Below, piece after piece: positions 16,237-30,012 of a DNA stretch of 37,239 nt. A program made the position numbers and the translations under genes. The notes under the pieces are model-generated. The model was not told the DNA's origin, made no database searches, and worked only from the letters and a program-made list of their open reading frames with translations. The DNA is from Armatimonadota bacterium (GTDB lineage: Bacteria; Sysuimicrobiota; Sysuimicrobiia; Sysuimicrobiales; Kaftiobacteriaceae): assembly GCA_031081675.1 (NCBI GenBank), contig JAVHLZ010000023.1, positions 1-37,239 of the forward strand, written 5' to 3'. Position 1 is the stretch's first letter; each line of letters starts with the position of its first letter.

Positions 16237-17256
16237 TCAGGCCCGCAGGGCCGAGGGCAGGGGCGCGTCCAGCGGCAGGTCGGCATGGGCCGACAGGGTG
16301 AGGTCGGCGCGCTCGCCGCGCGCCAGGCGGTGGTAGCCGGCGGCGGCGATCATGGCCGCGTTGTCGGTGCACAGGGCCGGCGGAGGAACGACCAGCCGCA
16401 GGCCGGCTGACGCGCACGCCGCGCCCATCCGCTCCCGCAGCTGGGCGTTGGCCGCGACGCCCCCCACCACCAGGACCGACGTCACGCCGGCCTGCGCGGC
16501 CGCCCGGAGAGTCTTGCGGACCAGGACCTCCACCACCGCCTGCTGGAGGCCGGCGGCCACGTCCTCCGGCCGGGGAGGCTGTCCCGGGCGGCGGAGGGCG
16601 CGCAGGGCCGCGGTCTTGATCCCGCTGAAGGAAAACTCCAGCGACTCGTCGGCCATGGGCAGCGGCAGGGGCACGGCCCGCGGGTCGCCGCGCCGGCTGA
16701 GGCGGTCGATTTCGGGCCCGCCGGGGTAGCCCAGGCCCAGGGCGCGGGCCACCTTGTCGAAGGCTTCTCCGGCGGCGTCATCCCGGGTGCGCCCCAGGAC
16801 CTGGTAGCGGCCGTGGTCGCGCACCAGCACCAGGTCGGTGTGGGCGCCGGAGACGATCAGGGCCACGGCGGGAAAGGAGAGGACGGGGTCGTGCAGGAGG
16901 GCGGCGTAGATGTGTCCTTCCAGGTGATTCACCCCGACCAGCGGCCGGGCCAGGGCCAGGGCCAGGGCCTTGGCCGCCGCCACGCCCACCGTGAGGGCGC
17001 CCACCAGCCCGGGCCCGCAGGTGACCGCCACGGCATCCACCTCCGCCAGGCGGACGCCCGCCTGCTCCAGGGCCTCATCGAGAACCGGCAGCAGCCTCTC
17101 CACGTGCTTGCGCGAGGCCAGTTCGGGCACCACGCCGCCGAACCGGCGATGCAGGTCCGCCTGGGAGGCGACCACGCTGGCCCGCACCCGGCGACCGTCG
17201 TCCACGATGGCGACGGCCGTCTCGTCGCAGGATGTCTCGATGCCCAGCACGCGCAT
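16237..17256 (-). CDS. tsaD: tRNA N6-threonylcarbamoyladenosine (t6A37) transferase TsaD
   Basis: Transfers threonylcarbamoyl from its adenylate to A37 of ANN-reading tRNAs, with TsaB and TsaE; 339 aa. The ASKHA-fold start is MRVLGIETSCDETAVAIVDD. The Fe/Zn-binding histidines are H111 and H115 in NHLEGHIYA. IVSGAHTDLVLVRDHG, DDAAGEAFDKVARALGLGYPGG and VVGGVAANAQLRE are family motifs. CTDNAAMIAAAG supplies the last metal ligand (Asp). The ATG follows the rimI stop with no gap. It is the final gene of the tsaE-tsaB-rimI-tsaD group. Confidence 0.97.
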   Translation of the reverse strand: MRVLGIETSCDETAVAIVDDGRRVRASVVASQADLHRRFGGVVPELASRKHVERLLPVLDEALEQAGVRLAEVDAVAVTCGPGLVGALTVGVAAAKALALALARPLVGVNHLEGHIYAALLHDPVLSFPAVALIVSGAHTDLVLVRDHGRYQVLGRTRDDAAGEAFDKVARALGLGYPGGPEIDRLSRRGDPRAVPLPLPMADESLEFSFSGIKTAALRALRRPGQPPRPEDVAAGLQQAVVEVLVRKTLRAAAQAGVTSVLVVGGVAANAQLRERMGAACASAGLRLVVPPPALCTDNAAMIAAAGYHRLARGERADLTLSAHADLPLDAPLPSALRA

Positions 17257-17823
17257 TCAACCCATCCCGCCATCGCTTCCGCCCCGATGGCGCTCCCGCC
17301 CGGGGCCCTCGCGGGCCAGGGCCGCCCGCAGCTGGGCCAGCCGCTGCTGGTAGGCCGGCTCCCGCAGGTCCCCGGTCCACATCACGATGGCGTCTTCCCG
17401 GTTGTCGCTGTAGTAGCCCTTGCGCACCCCGATCTCCCGGAACCCGTACTTCCGGTACAGAGCCTGGGCGGTGAGGTTGGACCGCCGCACCTCCAGGGTC
17501 ATCCACCGGGCGCCCCGGGCCAGCGCCTCCTCGATCAGGCCCATCAACAGCCGCTCGCCGATGTGCTGGCCGCGGTACTCGGGATCCACGGCGATGGTCG
17601 TGATGTGAGCCTCGTCGAGGATCACCCACATGCCGGCGTACCCCACCACCTCGCCGTCCTCGGTGCGGGCCACCAGGTAGGCCGCCAGCCGGTTCTCGCG
17701 CAGCTCGTGGGCGTAGGCGTCCCGCGGCCAGGGGGTGCGGAAGGACTGCCGCTCGATCTCCAGCACCCGCGGGATGTCCTCGGGGCGCATGGGCTCCAGG
17801 TGGACGCGGACGATCTGCTTCAC
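17257..17823 (-). CDS. rimI: ribosomal protein S18-alanine N-acetyltransferase family (RimI-like)
   Basis: GNAT acetyltransferase, 188 aa. The N-terminal part reads LEPMRPEDIPRVLEIERQSF and TPWPRDAYAHELRE, typical of RimI. The acetyl-CoA pyrophosphate loop is EYRGQHIGERLLMGLIEEAL, and the C-terminal motif is LTAQALYRKYGFREIGVRKG-YYSDNREDAIVM. It sits between tsaB and tsaD, the usual RimI position. The GTG start at 17821-17823 is 3 nt after the tsaB stop. The C-terminal about 35 residues form a charged extension beyond the GNAT core. The acetylated substrate (S18 or another protein) cannot be read from sequence. Confidence 0.9.
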   Translation of the reverse strand: MKQIVRVHLEPMRPEDIPRVLEIERQSFRTPWPRDAYAHELRENRLAAYLVARTEDGEVVGYAGMWVILDEAHITTIAVDPEYRGQHIGERLLMGLIEEALARGARWMTLEVRRSNLTAQALYRKYGFREIGVRKGYYSDNREDAIVMWTGDLREPAYQQRLAQLRAALAREGPGRERHRGGSDGGMG

Positions 17824-17826
17824 GGC

Positions 17827-18552
17827 TTACACTCCCAGTGCGCCGCCGGGGGAAGGTTCTCCTCCGGCGACGGCCGGGCGCGCGTACACAGGGCGCACCC
17901 GGTACAGGTCGTCCCGCTCGCCCCGGCGCAGCCGCCCCCACGCCAGGCGGCCCAGCGCCGCGGCGGTGGGCACCCACGCGGACGGAGGAGCGAACCGGGC
18001 CTGCGGGCGGGCGGCCCGCAGGATGTCCCCGTAGCGGGCCAGGGCGTCGCCGGTGAACGCCACCTCCGGAGGAAGCGGCAGGCGGCCCAGCACCTCCTCC
18101 ACCGGGCCCACCACGGGCCCCGCCTGGGGATCGGCGTCTGCGCCGGCGTACAGCGCTGCGGCCACCGCGCCGCGGCGCACGTCCACCAGGACGCACACCG
18201 GCCCGGGCTCTCCGGCGGCGGCGGCCACCACGGCCAGCGTGGAGATGGCGGCCAGCGGCACCTCCCGCGCCCGGGCCCAGGCGAGGGCGGTGGCAAGCCC
18301 GATCCGCACGCTGGTGAACTCCCCGGGGCCGGTGGACACGGCCAGGGCCTGCACGTCGGCCGGACGCCGGCCCGCCTCGTCCAGGAGCCGGCGGATCGCC
18401 GGCGCCAGCCACTCCAGGTGGCGCCGGGGCACCGACGCCTGCACCTGCACCAGCAGCTCGCCGCCGCGCAGCAGGGCGACGCTGGCGGATGGCGTGGACG
18501 TCTCCACGGCCAGGATCAACGGCGCGGCCCCGGAACCGTCCGGGCGGGTCAT
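17827..18552 (-). CDS. tsaB: tRNA t6A biosynthesis protein TsaB
   Basis: Non-catalytic ASKHA-fold partner that dimerises with TsaD, 241 aa. Typical sequence is LILAVETSTPSASVALLRGG, HLEWLAPAIRRLLDEAG and VSTGPGEFTSVRIGLATALAWA. The protein lacks the HxxEH metal site of TsaD, as expected. The ATG at 18550-18552 overlaps the tsaE stop by 4 bp. The open frame upstream of it is shadow sequence of tsaE. Confidence 0.94.
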   Translation of the reverse strand: MTRPDGSGAAPLILAVETSTPSASVALLRGGELLVQVQASVPRRHLEWLAPAIRRLLDEAGRRPADVQALAVSTGPGEFTSVRIGLATALAWARAREVPLAAISTLAVVAAAAGEPGPVCVLVDVRRGAVAAALYAGADADPQAGPVVGPVEEVLGRLPLPPEVAFTGDALARYGDILRAARPQARFAPPSAWVPTAAALGRLAWGRLRRGERDDLYRVRPVYARPAVAGGEPSPGGALGV

Positions 18553-19040
18553 CCGGCCTCCCCCGGCCCTGCCAGGGCCTCGGCCACCACCCGGGCGAAC
18601 CGGCTCCCCCGAGGGGTGACCTCCAGCACCCGCTCCTGCTCCCCGTCGGCGAACGCGACCGTCACCCACAGGTGGTCGGCGGGCAGCAGGTGACGGGCCC
18701 GCTCGGCCCACTCGATGACCACGATGCCCCCGCCGGCGAGGATGTCATCCAGGCCCAGGTCGTCCAGCTGCTCGGGGCGGTCCAGCCGGTACAGGTCTAC
18801 GTGGAAGACGGGGACCGCTCCGCGGTACTCGCGCACCAGGGTGAACGTCGGGCTGGCGATGTAGCCGCTGGCCCCCGCGCCCAGCGCGATGCCGCGGGCC
18901 AGGACCGTCTTGCCGGCGCCCAGGTCTCCCGACAGCGCCACCACGTCCCCGGGCTGCAGCCGGGCTCCCAGGCGACGGCCCACGGCTTCGGTCTCCTCGG
19001 CCGACCGGGTCACCAGGCGCACGGATACCGTCCCGCACAT
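18549..19040 (-). CDS. tsaE: tRNA t6A biosynthesis ATPase TsaE
   Basis: P-loop ATPase of the TsaBDE complex, 163 aa from the chosen start. Walker A is GDLGAGKT at 38-45, followed by ASPTFTLVREYRG (switch-like Thr/Ser) and FHVDLYRLDRPEQLDDLGLD with the conserved DLYR segment. VVIEWAERA is the late motif. I chose the ATG at 19038-19040. A GTG at 19086-19088 would add 16 residues rich in Pro/Gly, and neither has an ideal ribosome site. It heads the tsaE-tsaB-rimI-tsaD group. Confidence 0.93.
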   Translation of the reverse strand: MCGTVSVRLVTRSAEETEAVGRRLGARLQPGDVVALSGDLGAGKTVLARGIALGAGASGYIASPTFTLVREYRGAVPVFHVDLYRLDRPEQLDDLGLDDILAGGGIVVIEWAERARHLLPADHLWVTVAFADGEQERVLEVTPRGSRFARVVAEALAGPGEAG

Positions 19041-19122
19041 CCCCGTTGGCGTCCCCCTGACATCGCGCGCGGTCGGTGGGACTCCCACCCGCGCCGTGCG
19101 TCCCGCACTCCCGGGCGGACGT

Positions 19123-20433
19123 CTAGCGCAGCGGGCGCACCCGCAGCCGCAGGCCCTCCACCGCCACCACCGTGACCCGCTCGCCGGCGCGGATCGGCTC
19201 CCCCTCCGCCTCGGCGGACCAGGTCTCGCCCTGCACGTAGACCTGCCCGTCGGGGGCCAGGTCCGTGCGGGCCACGCCGACCGCCCCGATCAGGCTCTGG
19301 GGCCCCATCCGCGCCGGCACCCGCTGCGCCCGCAGCCCCGCCCCCACCGCGTAGAGGAAGAACGCGCCCGTGAGCAGGGCGGTGAACAGCGCCACCTGCA
19401 GGGACACCTGGAAGAACGGCAGCTGGCGCTCGGTGAGCAGCAGCGCGCCCAGCAGGAAGGCCAGCACGCCTCCCACCGTGAGCACCCCGTGGCCGGGGAC
19501 CTTCAGGTCGGCGATGAAGAACAGGAGGGAGAGGGCGATGAGGGCCAGGCCTGCGACGTTGACCTGCAGGATGGCGAAGGAGGTCAGGGCCAGGATCAGG
19601 GCGATGGCGCCCACCACCCCCGGCAGGATGGCGCCGGGATTGCTCAGTTCGAAGATGATGCCATAGATGGCGATGGTCATCAGGATGAGGCCGATGTTGG
19701 GGTCGCTGAGCAGGTCCAGCAGCCGCTCGCTGGGGTCCATGGCCAGGGCGCGCACCGGCGCGCCGCGGGTGGCCAGCCGCACGGGGCCGGCGGCCGTCTC
19801 CACCTCCCGCCCGTCCACCCGGGCGAGCAGGTCCGTGGCGTCGGCGGCCACCAGGTCCACCACCCGCAGCCGCACGGCCTCTTCCTCGTCCACCGACACG
19901 CTCTCGCGCACCGCCCGCTCGGCCCAGTCGGCGTTGCGCCCGCGCCGCCGGGCAATGGCCCGGATGTTGGCCACGGCGTCGTTGGTGACCTTGTCCATCA
20001 GGGTGCGGTCCTGCTCGCCCTGCCCCACCGCCACCGGGTGGGCGGCGCCGATCCGGGTCCCCGGAGCCATGGCCGCCACGTGGGCCGCGTAGGTGACGAA
20101 CACGCCCGCCGACGCCGCCCGGGCGCCGCTGGGGCTCACGTACACGATGACCGGGACCCGGGCGTTGAGCATGGCGGTGGTGATGTCCTCCATCGAGCGC
20201 AGCAGCCCGCCGGGCGTGTTGAGCTCGACCAGGACCGTGGCGTCCCCCGCCTCCTCGGCGGCGCGGATGGCGCGGCGGATGTAGCGGGCGCTGGCGGGGC
20301 TGATGACGCCGTCCACCCGGATGCGCACGACGGAGCGGGACTCCGCCGCCGGAGCGGCCCACACCGCCCCCGACGCCAGCGCCGGCACGCCCAGCGCGAT
20401 CGCCGCGATGGCCCCCAGCACCCGTGCCCTCAT
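19123..20433 (-). CDS. nfeD: full-length NfeD-type membrane serine protease
   Basis: Membrane protein of the NfeD1b class (ClpP-like protease domain, membrane helices, OB-fold), 436 aa. A signal peptide of about 27 residues precedes a ClpP-like domain with the catalytic Ser108 in RAASAGVFVTYAAH and Lys148 in LMDKVTNDAVANIRAIARRR. About 260-380 holds four or five hydrophobic helices (LILMTIAIYGIIFE, GAIALILALTSFAILQ, ALIALSLLFFIADL, VGGVLAFLLGALLL, VALFTALLTGAFFLYAV). The C-terminal NfeD OB-fold contains LIGAVGVARTDLAPDGQVYV. Full-length NfeD usually partners with stomatin/flotillin, and no such gene is adjacent here. The ATG overlaps the ligase stop. Confidence 0.93.
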   Translation of the reverse strand: MRARVLGAIAAIALGVPALASGAVWAAPAAESRSVVRIRVDGVISPASARYIRRAIRAAEEAGDATVLVELNTPGGLLRSMEDITTAMLNARVPVIVYVSPSGARAASAGVFVTYAAHVAAMAPGTRIGAAHPVAVGQGEQDRTLMDKVTNDAVANIRAIARRRGRNADWAERAVRESVSVDEEEAVRLRVVDLVAADATDLLARVDGREVETAAGPVRLATRGAPVRALAMDPSERLLDLLSDPNIGLILMTIAIYGIIFELSNPGAILPGVVGAIALILALTSFAILQVNVAGLALIALSLLFFIADLKVPGHGVLTVGGVLAFLLGALLLTERQLPFFQVSLQVALFTALLTGAFFLYAVGAGLRAQRVPARMGPQSLIGAVGVARTDLAPDGQVYVQGETWSAEAEGEPIRAGERVTVVAVEGLRLRVRPLR

Positions 20434-22124
20434 CGGACCCTCCCCGCCGCCGGCAGCCGGGCGGAGACGCCTCCGCGGGCCGCGCCCTGGCGCTCGAAGA
20501 TCGCCCGCACGTCGTCCAGCGTGCTGATCTCCTCCGCCGTCTTGTCGTACCGGATGCGGGTGATGCGCGGGAACCGCAGGGCGTAGCCGCCGGGGTGGCG
20601 CGGGCTGCGCGTCACCGCGTCGAAGGCGACCTCCAGGACCACCTTCGGCTCCACCACCTTGACCCGCCCGCGATCCTGGAGGGTGTGGGCGCGGAACCAG
20701 GCGGTGAGCTCGGCGATCTCGGCGTCGGTCAGGCCGGTGTAGGCCTTGCCCACCGGCACCAGGCGGTCGCCGTCGCGCACGGCGAAGGTCACGTCGCTGA
20801 GCACGCCCGCGCGCTTGCCGTGGCCCTGCTCGGCCGCCACCACCACCACATCCAGGGTGGCCAGCTCCTCCTTCCACTTCAACCACAGGCGGCCGCGCCG
20901 GCCGGGCAGGTAGGGGGAGTCCGGCCGCTTGACCACCACCCCCTCGTACCCGGCCTCCCGGGCCTGGCGGAAGCGGGCGGCCAGGTCGGCGGCGGTCGCC
21001 ACGGGGGCGGAGGCGGCCAGGCGCACCGCCTCCCCCCAGCGCAGGCTCTGGAGCAGCCGCCGGCGCTCCCGCAGGGGGAGGTCCACCAGGTCCGCCCCGT
21101 CCAGGTGCAGCAGGTCGAAGGCCCACAGGACCACGGGCACCTCCTCCCGCACCGCGTCGGGGTCCTTGCGGCGCAGGCGCTGCTGGAGGCGCACAAAGGG
21201 CAGCGGCCCGTCCTTCCACGCCACGATCTCGCCGTCCAGGACGTACCGCCCGGCGAGGCTCCGCAGATCGGCGTGCAGCTCGGGAAACGACGCGGTCACC
21301 TCGTCCAGGGTGCGGCTGTAGATGGCGATCCGGGACCCGTCGCTGTGGACCTGGCAGCGAATGCCGTCGTATTTGTCCTCCACCATCAGGACCTCCGGCG
21401 CGCCCGCCCCGCCTGCGCCGCGCGCCGCGAAGGCCTCGTCGGCGGCGTACATGGTGTCCGCCAGCATGAACCGCAGCGGCCGAAACAGCTGCAGGCGGGC
21501 CTCGCCCAGCCTGCCGGCGCGGGCCAGGACCGCCACCTGGCCGATGTCCCCGGTCAGCATGTGGGCGCGGCGCACGGCGTCCAGGGGCGCGCCGAAGGCG
21601 CGGGCGATGGCCTCCTCCAGCAGCCCCTCCTTCAGGCCGACCCGCATGTCGGATGTGATGATCCGCACCAGGTACCGCGCCTCCGCGGGCTCGGCGTCCT
21701 GCAGCAGCGCCCGGATTCCCTCCCCCTTGGCCTGGCGGGACCGCGGACCCGCAGTCTCCGCCAGGCGGGAGAAAGCCTCGGCGACCCGCGCCAGGGTGAG
21801 CGGCTGGCCGAACAGCGACCCGCGCGCCTTGCGGGTCAGCAGTTCCGCCGCCACCGACCCCAGGTCGCCGTGGCGGAGGTAGCTGTCCTCCACCGCTTCG
21901 GGTGGCGCGCCGGTCACATCCTGCAGGGCCTCCACCAGGGTGGACCACCCCACCTGCAGGGTGCGGCCGCTGGCCGGCGGCAGCGGCGAGCCCGTCAGGA
22001 AGGTGCAGGCGATGCGCAGGTCCTCCTCCGACAGGGACCGCAGGTAGTCGGCCAGGATCTCAACCTTCCGCAGCGTGCTCGCCGTCCCCGCCACGGCGTC
22101 CAGGACGGCGGCCAGGCGTCGCAT
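20430..22124 (-). CDS. lig: ATP-dependent DNA ligase, archaeal/eukaryotic Lig1-like type
   Basis: Seals nicks using ATP; 564 aa. The N-terminal DNA-binding domain opens with LRKVEILADYLRSLSEEDLR, as in archaeal replicative ligases. The adenylation motif I is VEDKYDGIRCQ with the catalytic Lys251. YVLDGEIVAWKDG is motif III, EGVVVKRPDSPYLPGRRG motif IV, and WLKWKEELATLDVVVVAAEQG motif V. The C-terminal OB-fold contains LRFPRITRIRYDK. The architecture is full length, unlike short bacterial NHEJ or LigB ligases. The start is uncertain between ATG 22122-22124 (GAGAGG 6 nt upstream, chosen) and GTG 22128-22130. A TAGAAT -10-like hexamer (complement of 22152-22157) lies upstream. Confidence 0.95.
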   Translation of the reverse strand: MRRLAAVLDAVAGTASTLRKVEILADYLRSLSEEDLRIACTFLTGSPLPPASGRTLQVGWSTLVEALQDVTGAPPEAVEDSYLRHGDLGSVAAELLTRKARGSLFGQPLTLARVAEAFSRLAETAGPRSRQAKGEGIRALLQDAEPAEARYLVRIITSDMRVGLKEGLLEEAIARAFGAPLDAVRRAHMLTGDIGQVAVLARAGRLGEARLQLFRPLRFMLADTMYAADEAFAARGAGGAGAPEVLMVEDKYDGIRCQVHSDGSRIAIYSRTLDEVTASFPELHADLRSLAGRYVLDGEIVAWKDGPLPFVRLQQRLRRKDPDAVREEVPVVLWAFDLLHLDGADLVDLPLRERRRLLQSLRWGEAVRLAASAPVATAADLAARFRQAREAGYEGVVVKRPDSPYLPGRRGRLWLKWKEELATLDVVVVAAEQGHGKRAGVLSDVTFAVRDGDRLVPVGKAYTGLTDAEIAELTAWFRAHTLQDRGRVKVVEPKVVLEVAFDAVTRSPRHPGGYALRFPRITRIRYDKTAEEISTLDDVRAIFERQGAARGGVSARLPAAGRVR

Positions 22125-22189
22125 GGACACCCTCTCCCGTCGTGCACGACCATTCTACCCCAACCGGTCCGCCCGCGGGCTCGGGCGGC

Positions 22190-28749: not shown

Positions 28750-30012
28750 CTACTTGCACACGCCGGCGTCCCGGCAGGCCTTGGCAAACCCGGCCTGGGC
28801 CTTGGCCACGTCCCGGTCGTTGACGAAGGCGGTCATCACGTCGTTGATCATCGTCACCCACGTCTCCGATGCGGCGGCGCCGTGGGCCAGGCTGGGCACG
28901 ATGGCGTCCTTGGCCCAGTCCTGCATCGCCGAGCGCAGGTAGGGGCCGAACAGCTGCGGGTTGCAGTCGCTGCGGGCGCAGATGGACCCCTTGACCGGGT
29001 TGAACGCCTCCTGGCCGGCCTTGCTGCCCACCAGCCGCAGCCAGTTGACGGCCTGGACGCGGTGGGGGGCCTTCTTGGGCAGCCCGAAGGTGTCCGACAG
29101 GGCCACGAACACCCCGCGGGTGCCGGGCGGAGGCGCCCATCCGGAGTCCTTGAATCCCTTGGCCAGGTTGTCGGCGTCCACCCAGTCCCCCATGATGGTC
29201 ATGCCCGCCTTGCCCTGGATCACCAGGTCGTTGGCCTGGTCCCAGGACAGGGCCGCGTGGTCGGGATTCACGTACTGCAGCATGCGGGCCATGGTCTGCA
29301 GCGCCCGGCGCACCTCCGGGCCGGTCCAGCTGGTGGCGCCGGTCCACAGCCCCTTGTAGGCCTGGGGGCTCATGGACCCCGCCAGGACCACCTCAAACAG
29401 GTGCACCGACGCCCAGATCCCCACATCGCCCAGGGCCAGGGGGGTGATGCCCTTGGCCTTCATCCGCTCGGCCAGGGCGAAGAACTCGTCGAAGGTGGTC
29501 GGCGGGCGCCAGCCGTTGGCCTGGAAGACCTTCCGGTTGTACCACAGGACGTTGGCCCGGTGGATGTTGACCGGCACCGACCAGTAGCTGGCGCGGTAGC
29601 GCAGCAGCTCCAGCACGCCCCGGGGGAACACCCGCTCCCACCCCTCGGAGCGGTACAGGTCGTCCAGGGGCTCCATGTACCCGGTGACCACCCAGGTGTC
29701 GATCAGTTCCCGCCCCATGTGGACCTGGAAGGAGTCCGGCGGGTCACCGCCCAGCATCCGTGCCTTCAGCGCCGGCTTGGCCTCGAAGCCGGCGCCGCCG
29801 GCCACGGTGGCGTTGATGATCTCCACGCCGGGGTACTGCTTGCGGTAGAGGTCGAACAGCTTCAGCAGGCCCGCCGCCTCCCCGCCGGTGGTCCACCAGG
29901 AGAAGATTTCCAGCTTGGCGGCCGGCCCGGCCCGGGCGACCGGCAGGCCGCCCAGGAGGACGGCCAGGACCACGACACTGACCACGCCGGAGAGCAGGCT
30001 TCTGCGTCCCAT
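28750..30012 (-). CDS. glucose/galactose-type ABC transporter substrate-binding protein
   Basis: 420 aa, secreted or envelope-anchored. The signal peptide is residues 1-28 (LLSGVVSVVVLAVLLGGLPVARA). The mature start, AKLEIFSWWTTGGEAAGLLK, the stretch INATVAGGAGFEAKPALKAR and MLGGDPPDSFQVHMG closely follow what I recall of the Thermus thermophilus glucose/galactose-binding protein and Pseudomonas GtsA. So do WSVPVNIHRANVLWYNRKVF and NWLRLVGSKAGQEAFNP. There is no lipobox Cys at the cleavage site. It is divergent from galK, which supports galactose and/or glucose as ligand. The start ATG at 30010-30012 follows a G-rich ribosome site; an upstream in-frame start adds 19 non-signal residues. Confidence 0.9.
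   Translation of the reverse strand: MGRRSLLSGVVSVVVLAVLLGGLPVARAGPAAKLEIFSWWTTGGEAAGLLKLFDLYRKQYPGVEIINATVAGGAGFEAKPALKARMLGGDPPDSFQVHMGRELIDTWVVTGYMEPLDDLYRSEGWERVFPRGVLELLRYRASYWSVPVNIHRANVLWYNRKVFQANGWRPPTTFDEFFALAERMKAKGITPLALGDVGIWASVHLFEVVLAGSMSPQAYKGLWTGATSWTGPEVRRALQTMARMLQYVNPDHAALSWDQANDLVIQGKAGMTIMGDWVDADNLAKGFKDSGWAPPPGTRGVFVALSDTFGLPKKAPHRVQAVNWLRLVGSKAGQEAFNPVKGSICARSDCNPQLFGPYLRSAMQDWAKDAIVPSLAHGAAASETWVTMINDVMTAFVNDRDVAKAQAGFAKACRDAGVCK

Follow-up and report, generated by a model that had tools for sequence, protein, structure and literature searches.

Bacteria are generally held to need NAD-dependent DNA ligase (LigA), which is regarded as universal among them and serves as an antibacterial target. 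The chemistry of nick sealing is established: a lysine is adenylated, AMP is transferred to the nick and a bond then forms with the 3' OH. The bacterial repair ligases LigD and LigC either lack an N-terminal DNA-binding domain or carry fused polymerase or phosphoesterase domains. The ligase described here has the same three domains as bacterial LigB (NF002868/PRK03180), the TIGR04120 "cisplatin damage response" ligase and NF006701; in the TIGR04120 module, an exonuclease and a DEXH helicase flank the Paracoccus gene. A further relevant group is the Lig1 ligase of crenarchaeal and bathyarchaeal type, represented by the solved chain 2hiv, a Saccharolobus-type ligase.

According to a 2016 review (PMC5052709), bacterial ATP-dependent ligases never replace LigA and are apparently not essential. 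A published account (PMC4378268) describes one case in which LigA has been lost and an ATP-dependent ligase stands in its place, namely Babela massiliensis of the TM6 group, a single lineage of reduced amoebal parasites. The phylum considered here, CSP1-3, resembles Babela in having genomes without LigA but with an ATP-dependent ligase; however, its genomes span 1.5-2.9 Mb, the loss is repeated within the phylum, and the displacing ligase is of Lig1 type and appears to have been transferred. CSP1-3 has since been named Sysuimicrobiota, and enrichments of its members have been reported (PMC11604079); in the accessible text of that report the word "ligase" occurs once, in formate-tetrahydrofolate ligase. 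A literature search, outside which most subscription papers fell, returned no account of CSP1-3 members losing LigA and no displacement by an archaeal Lig1-type ligase in a non-parasitic bacterium, Babela being the sole precedent found.

The window (the whole stretch of DNA that was analysed, 37,239 nucleotides of contig JAVHLZ010000023.1) comes from the genome designated G000. It encodes a LigB-like ligase, here termed class B, while a Lig1-type ligase, class A, lies outside it on contig C22. The preferred reading, to which a probability of about three in four is given, is that the host has lost LigA, that class A has repeatedly displaced LigA as the replicative ligase, that the window gene would be auxiliary and that Ku and LigD would join DNA ends.

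The window ligase, its neighbours and its descent

The features concerned are listed below; all but the last are in the window.

20430-22124, minus strand: class B, LigB-like three-domain ATP-dependent DNA ligase, 564 aa from ATG (reading frame, translation, Pfam, PDB matches, start and stop in the sequence)
21603-22121, minus strand: DNA_ligase_A_N, DNA-binding domain of the window ligase (Pfam)
20871-21467, minus strand: DNA_ligase_A_M, adenylation domain of the window ligase (Pfam), with motif I KYDG at about 21363-21374
20541-20810, minus strand: DNA_ligase_A_C, OB-fold domain of the window ligase (Pfam residues 441-530 converted to bases)
19123-20433, minus strand: nfeD (NfeD domains), its start codon overlapping the ligase stop
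18549-19088, minus strand: tsaE (PF02367, 1e-38)
17827-18711, minus strand: probable tsaB-like gene, named from a TsaD-family match; start uncertain, the listed reading frame overlapping tsaE
17257-17823, minus strand: putative GNAT acetyltransferase in the rimI position
16237-17256, minus strand: tsaD (match 8.8e-99)
C22, from about base 29642, outside the window: class A, crenarchaeal/bathyarchaeal Lig1-type ligase

The window ligase is complete. Its mechanically listed reading frame begins at a GTG at 22130, 6 bases ahead of the ATG, and with residues numbered from this GTG Pfam places DNA_ligase_A_N at 4-176 (2.2e-37), DNA_ligase_A_M at 222-420 (7.5e-44) and DNA_ligase_A_C at 441-530 (7.6e-15). 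The N-terminal DNA-binding, adenylation and OB domains, all scoring well over cut-off, thus stand in order in one chain, as a sequence-only reading of this DNA had proposed in calling the product a full-length ATP-dependent ligase of that architecture. The closest solved structure is the DNA ligase 3gde (5.8e-109, residues 14-548). In a 10-row alignment of the window ligase with nine relatives from the phylum (55-68% identity to it), the adenylation lysine K253 of KYDG, D255, G256, E301, K418 and K420 are invariant.

The gene is embedded in a conserved run. Its stop and the start of nfeD share the bases ATGA at 20433-20430, and the adjoining NfeD protein has N-terminal, membrane and C-terminal domains. 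The order ligase-nfeD-tsaE-tsaB-rimI-tsaD recurs in relatives across the phylum, and, when 20 loci were compared, the genes downstream of representative class B members were found again in 11 to 15 other loci. This shared neighbourhood and the ATGA overlap uphold the earlier view that the gene is integrated rather than recently inserted, and its base composition does resemble that of its surroundings (GC 0.744 against 0.742 for the window). Unlike the TIGR04120 module, the run includes neither partner: no ligase-associated exonuclease or DEXH helicase was found among the neighbours, where nfeD and the tsa genes lie instead. ARAGORN calls a tRNA-Ala(CGC) at 16279-16370 within tsaD on the opposite strand, probably a false positive of GC-rich sequence.

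Profile models leave the family of the window ligase to be settled by a tree. The NCBIfam models for actinobacterial LigB and a haloarchaeal ATP-dependent ligase and two proteobacterial models score near-equally, all under cut-off (380.7 against 641, 351.6 against 400 and 374.7 against 543 for the equivalogs), which made a tree necessary; only the superfamily model TIGR00574 is exceeded (302.5 against 217.8). Falling below every equivalog cut-off, the protein belongs to a related lineage rather than to a named equivalog. In a 36-row tree, which retains 9 of 27 class B rows and a thinned set of actinobacterial ones (an earlier ligase tree had dropped three short class B rows), window-type, TIGR04120 and actinobacterial LigB sequences form one clade (100/99), separate from 13 archaeal or Lig1-type rows. 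Within it, window-type and TIGR04120 rows group at 100/100, but the TIGR04120 branch is long (2.71), so that this exact position is less certain than the bacterial clade itself. Constrained trees uniting the window type with three euryarchaeal rows (AU 5.1e-5) or with ten Lig1/crenarchaeal-type rows (AU 7.3e-4) were rejected.

The archaeal-type label that the sequence-only reading had attached to this gene is accordingly abandoned. That reading had expected placement among LigD/LigC repair ligases if it was wrong; the gene is no such ligase, since it has the N-terminal DNA-binding domain and the LigD of the genome is a separate gene on contig C26, yet its kin are bacterial LigB proteins and not archaeal ones. 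As judged from the 36-row tree, the gene is bacterial and LigB-like, old in the phylum and without archaeal transfer; present sequence comparisons make it a bacterial ligase of LigB type, kept by vertical descent across the phylum, which would seal nicks as an auxiliary repair enzyme.

LigA and ATP-dependent ligases in the host and its phylum

LigA was searched for in a phylum sample of 43 genomes, to judge by the titles seen all uncultured assemblies, covering one order and seven families; 28 of them form a high-quality subset (completeness at least 90%, contamination at most 5%). The LigA adenylation domain was found in 31 genomes (LigA-plus), 19 of them of high quality, and not in the other 12 (LigA-minus). 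The host belongs to the latter: the LigA adenylation domain has no match in G000, whereas 11 of 14 control genomes match. As far as its assembled sequence goes, the bacterium from which the window comes has lost LigA, contrary to the earlier premise that it relies on this enzyme, and its ligA slot is empty (see below). Genus g5 contains LigA-plus as well as LigA-minus species. At the opposite extreme of the phylum, G013, G026, G032 and G034 (genus g9) and G010 have LigA but neither a PF01068 ATP-dependent ligase nor Ku.

G000 encodes three PF01068 proteins, namely the window ligase, LigD on C26 and class A on C22. Its LigD has 909 residues (L003:52-2781) in the order phosphoesterase-ligase-polymerase and adjoins Ku, for which the sequence-only reading had also suggested looking; the two genes look like a complete end-joining pair and probably act as one. 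An archaeal-type ligase thus does exist in the genome, but outside the window. In G020 and G023 a third type of ATP-dependent ligase occurs (L058:3746-5665 and L060:4013-5929), which groups with actinobacterial LigB; the G020 protein scores 506 bits with PRK03180, under the cut-off of 641.

Class A matches 2hiv over almost its whole length (2.5e-186; the next structure is 3rr5, 2.7e-118) and groups with archaeal Lig1 in trees. The tree on which class A was placed drew on 29 of the best 80 class A-like loci from 84,980 species genomes, and later trees on fewer; these 80 belong to this phylum, to archaea (mostly Bathyarchaeota) and to a few Actinomycetota-type genomes. By descent, these comparisons indicate, class A is truly crenarchaeal/bathyarchaeal Lig1-like; it differs from archaeal Lig1 in being encoded in bacteria and in a replicative role that is deduced, and this likeness concerns the C22 gene, not the window gene. 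Loci L100, L102, L130, L142 and L150 (Actinomycetota-type genomes and one other bacterium) hold Lig1-type ligases related to class A. Such Actinomycetota-type genomes were considered as further LigA-less bacteria and discarded, all five tested keeping LigA. The KxDG motif is present in 17 of 17 class A and 30 of 30 class B rows; loose regular expressions for the other ligase motifs failed to pick up many class B rows, fragments among them. A scan of both classes for beta-clamp-like motifs gave scattered matches only.

Class A follows the absence of LigA. Intact copies occur in 16 of the 43 genomes, and G021 has a frame-disrupted copy (C52:4141-5408, L032) that extends over two frames, is 68% identical across 236 residues to that of G022 and was left out of all class A trees; it reflects gene decay or else a fault of assembly. 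Counting it, class A is found in 11 of 12 LigA-minus against 6 of 31 LigA-plus genomes (Fisher 2.1e-5), and among high-quality genomes in 9 of 9 against 5 of 19 (5.8e-4). In G016, at 99% completeness and 1% contamination, the single PF01068 protein is class A, and LigA and Ku were not found, so that class A is the sole DNA ligase detected there. The one LigA-minus genome without class A is G036, which is 78% complete. Possession of class A does not force the loss of LigA, since intact copies occur in 5 of the 31 LigA-plus genomes and all five of the other bacterial homologue genomes keep LigA. Phylogenetically independent pairs number six without G036 (mean 5.0 in the same direction, 0.0 opposite; median p 0.0625) and seven with it (4.6 against 0.4; median p 0.125), a trend only, because few events are available.

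Inheritance, loss and alternative explanations

In the LigA tree, which omits G034 and G041, each of the families f1, f5 and f7 comes out as a group. LigA is therefore inherited, and where it is absent, loss is the best reading. When 37 genomes are placed on an rpoB tree (G002, G014, G015, G033, G035 and G040 had rpoB missing or too short), the LigA state changes seven times, or presumably six with the incomplete G036, a single branch, set aside. The class A tree departs from the species relationships: the class A sequences of family f3 and of family f5 are not clades (AU 2.2e-5 and 6.0e-61), and the genes flanking class A vary between genera while being common to close species (G016 and G019; G022, G025, G028 and G031). 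G016 carries class A with an NFACT gene on one side and a transaldolase-like gene on the other (L073:3409-8242), flanks that it has in common with G019 (L064).

The same trees bear on another possible history, in which a common ancestor held both LigA and class A and one or the other was then lost, in place of repeated class A arrival. The AU test does not reject one origin for class A across the phylum (0.416), family f1 has its class A rows in one group (81/90), and the genes flanking class A are common to G000 and G001 although these two are not sisters on the rpoB tree, a pattern consistent with both ligases having been present in the f1 ancestor and one of them having been lost afterwards. 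Against this stand the scattered class A sequences of f3 and f5 and the neighbours that differ from genus to genus, which would require transfer or hidden old duplicates as well. Reciprocal loss is thus a possible but less probable account, and repeated loss of LigA beside class A holds under either.

It is improbable that the window ligase, rather than class A, replaced LigA in the replication of G000, whether alone or in a shared role. This genome holds class B and LigD beside class A, and replicative sealing might in theory rest with the window gene, which is intact, retains its catalytic residues and lies within a housekeeping run. Class B also occurs in 10 of 12 LigA-minus genomes; but it is found in 21 of 31 LigA-plus ones too (p 0.46; that of G041 was assigned on score alone), and the window gene was accordingly discarded as cause or marker of LigA loss. 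G016, moreover, has neither LigA nor class B, class A alone being found there, and the kin of class B are the bacterial ATP-dependent ligases termed apparently non-essential in the review cited above (PMC5052709).

The genes around ligA argue that its absence is real. In the LigA-plus genome G007 the order is GHMP kinase-thrC-thiS-ligA-GerM-Hfq-like-carboxyltransferase-biotin carboxylase-mutase, the short names being partly inferred from Pfam. G000 and G004, the latter of the same genus code as G007, have every one of these genes except ligA in unchanged order, and their GerM genes are 56% and 65% identical, respectively, to the one 3' of ligA in G007. Between thiS and the GerM gene the sequence of both is unbroken, with neither ligA nor a run of N; the sole N run of the G000 stretch lies elsewhere (13767-13866 of L273). 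The empty site with both flanks was seen in these 2 of the 12 LigA-minus genomes. In G012 and G029 the right-hand flank alone was found, without ligA, while a carboxylase query gave in five f3 genomes only 38-39% matches, judged paralogues, and nothing over threshold in G001, G016 and G036.

That LigA is present but was missed through assembly gaps, binning or extreme divergence is close to refuted. The assemblies are drafts, that of G000 being 97.8% complete in 50 contigs; but besides the unbroken empty site in two genomes, rpoB was found by the same procedure in 40 of 43 genomes and in 28 of 28 high-quality ones, 9 of which are without LigA. The whole LigA protein of G007 as query matched all three LigA-plus controls (67-69% identity) and none of the 12 LigA-minus genomes, and the losses cluster by genus and accompany class A.

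Archaeal contamination of the bins is scarcely credible as the source of class A: the copy in G006 may be a contaminant, lying on a 4.4 kb contig of 63% GC while the close relatives G003 and G008 have none, but elsewhere the contigs that bear class A are long (G004, 560,927 bases; G019, 430,923; G016, 245,660) and its neighbours are common to sister species, its GC in G000 (0.717) is near that of the genome (0.72-0.74 in four stretches), and ten further class A proteins share 59-74% identity with that of G000, against 54-61% for the archaea among the best 80 loci.

Proposed displacement of LigA and its meaning

Under the preferred reading, in which class A displaced LigA, class A would have been acquired from outside the phylum and then passed between families. 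It would have taken over the sealing of Okazaki fragments using ATP, which would adenylate the lysine of KYDG, AMP then passing to the 5' phosphate of the nick and the 3' OH closing the bond as in archaeal Lig1. The replicative role is assigned to class A because LigA is absent and because G016 yielded no ligase other than class A. Such a takeover would permit the loss of ligA, at least six times, and Ku and LigD, encoded on C26, would carry out end joining.

In a wider sense, the archaeal Lig1-type ligase is fairly likely to be a mobile replacement part: it would move between families, work alongside a bacterial replisome and have taken the place of LigA on six or more occasions, so that some bacteria are left with an archaeal-type, ATP-driven enzyme as their sole DNA ligase, in a phylum for which parasitism is not known. 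Gene displacement itself is known; here it concerns an unexpected enzyme and is repeated within one phylum. With LigA repeatedly traded for an archaeal-type ligase in this phylum, the reason why NAD-driven ligation is retained in bacteria would become open to test. Likewise, the exchanges between LigA and class A, with LigA-plus and LigA-minus species in genus g5, may allow a test of whether a bacterial replisome requires any particular property of its ligase.
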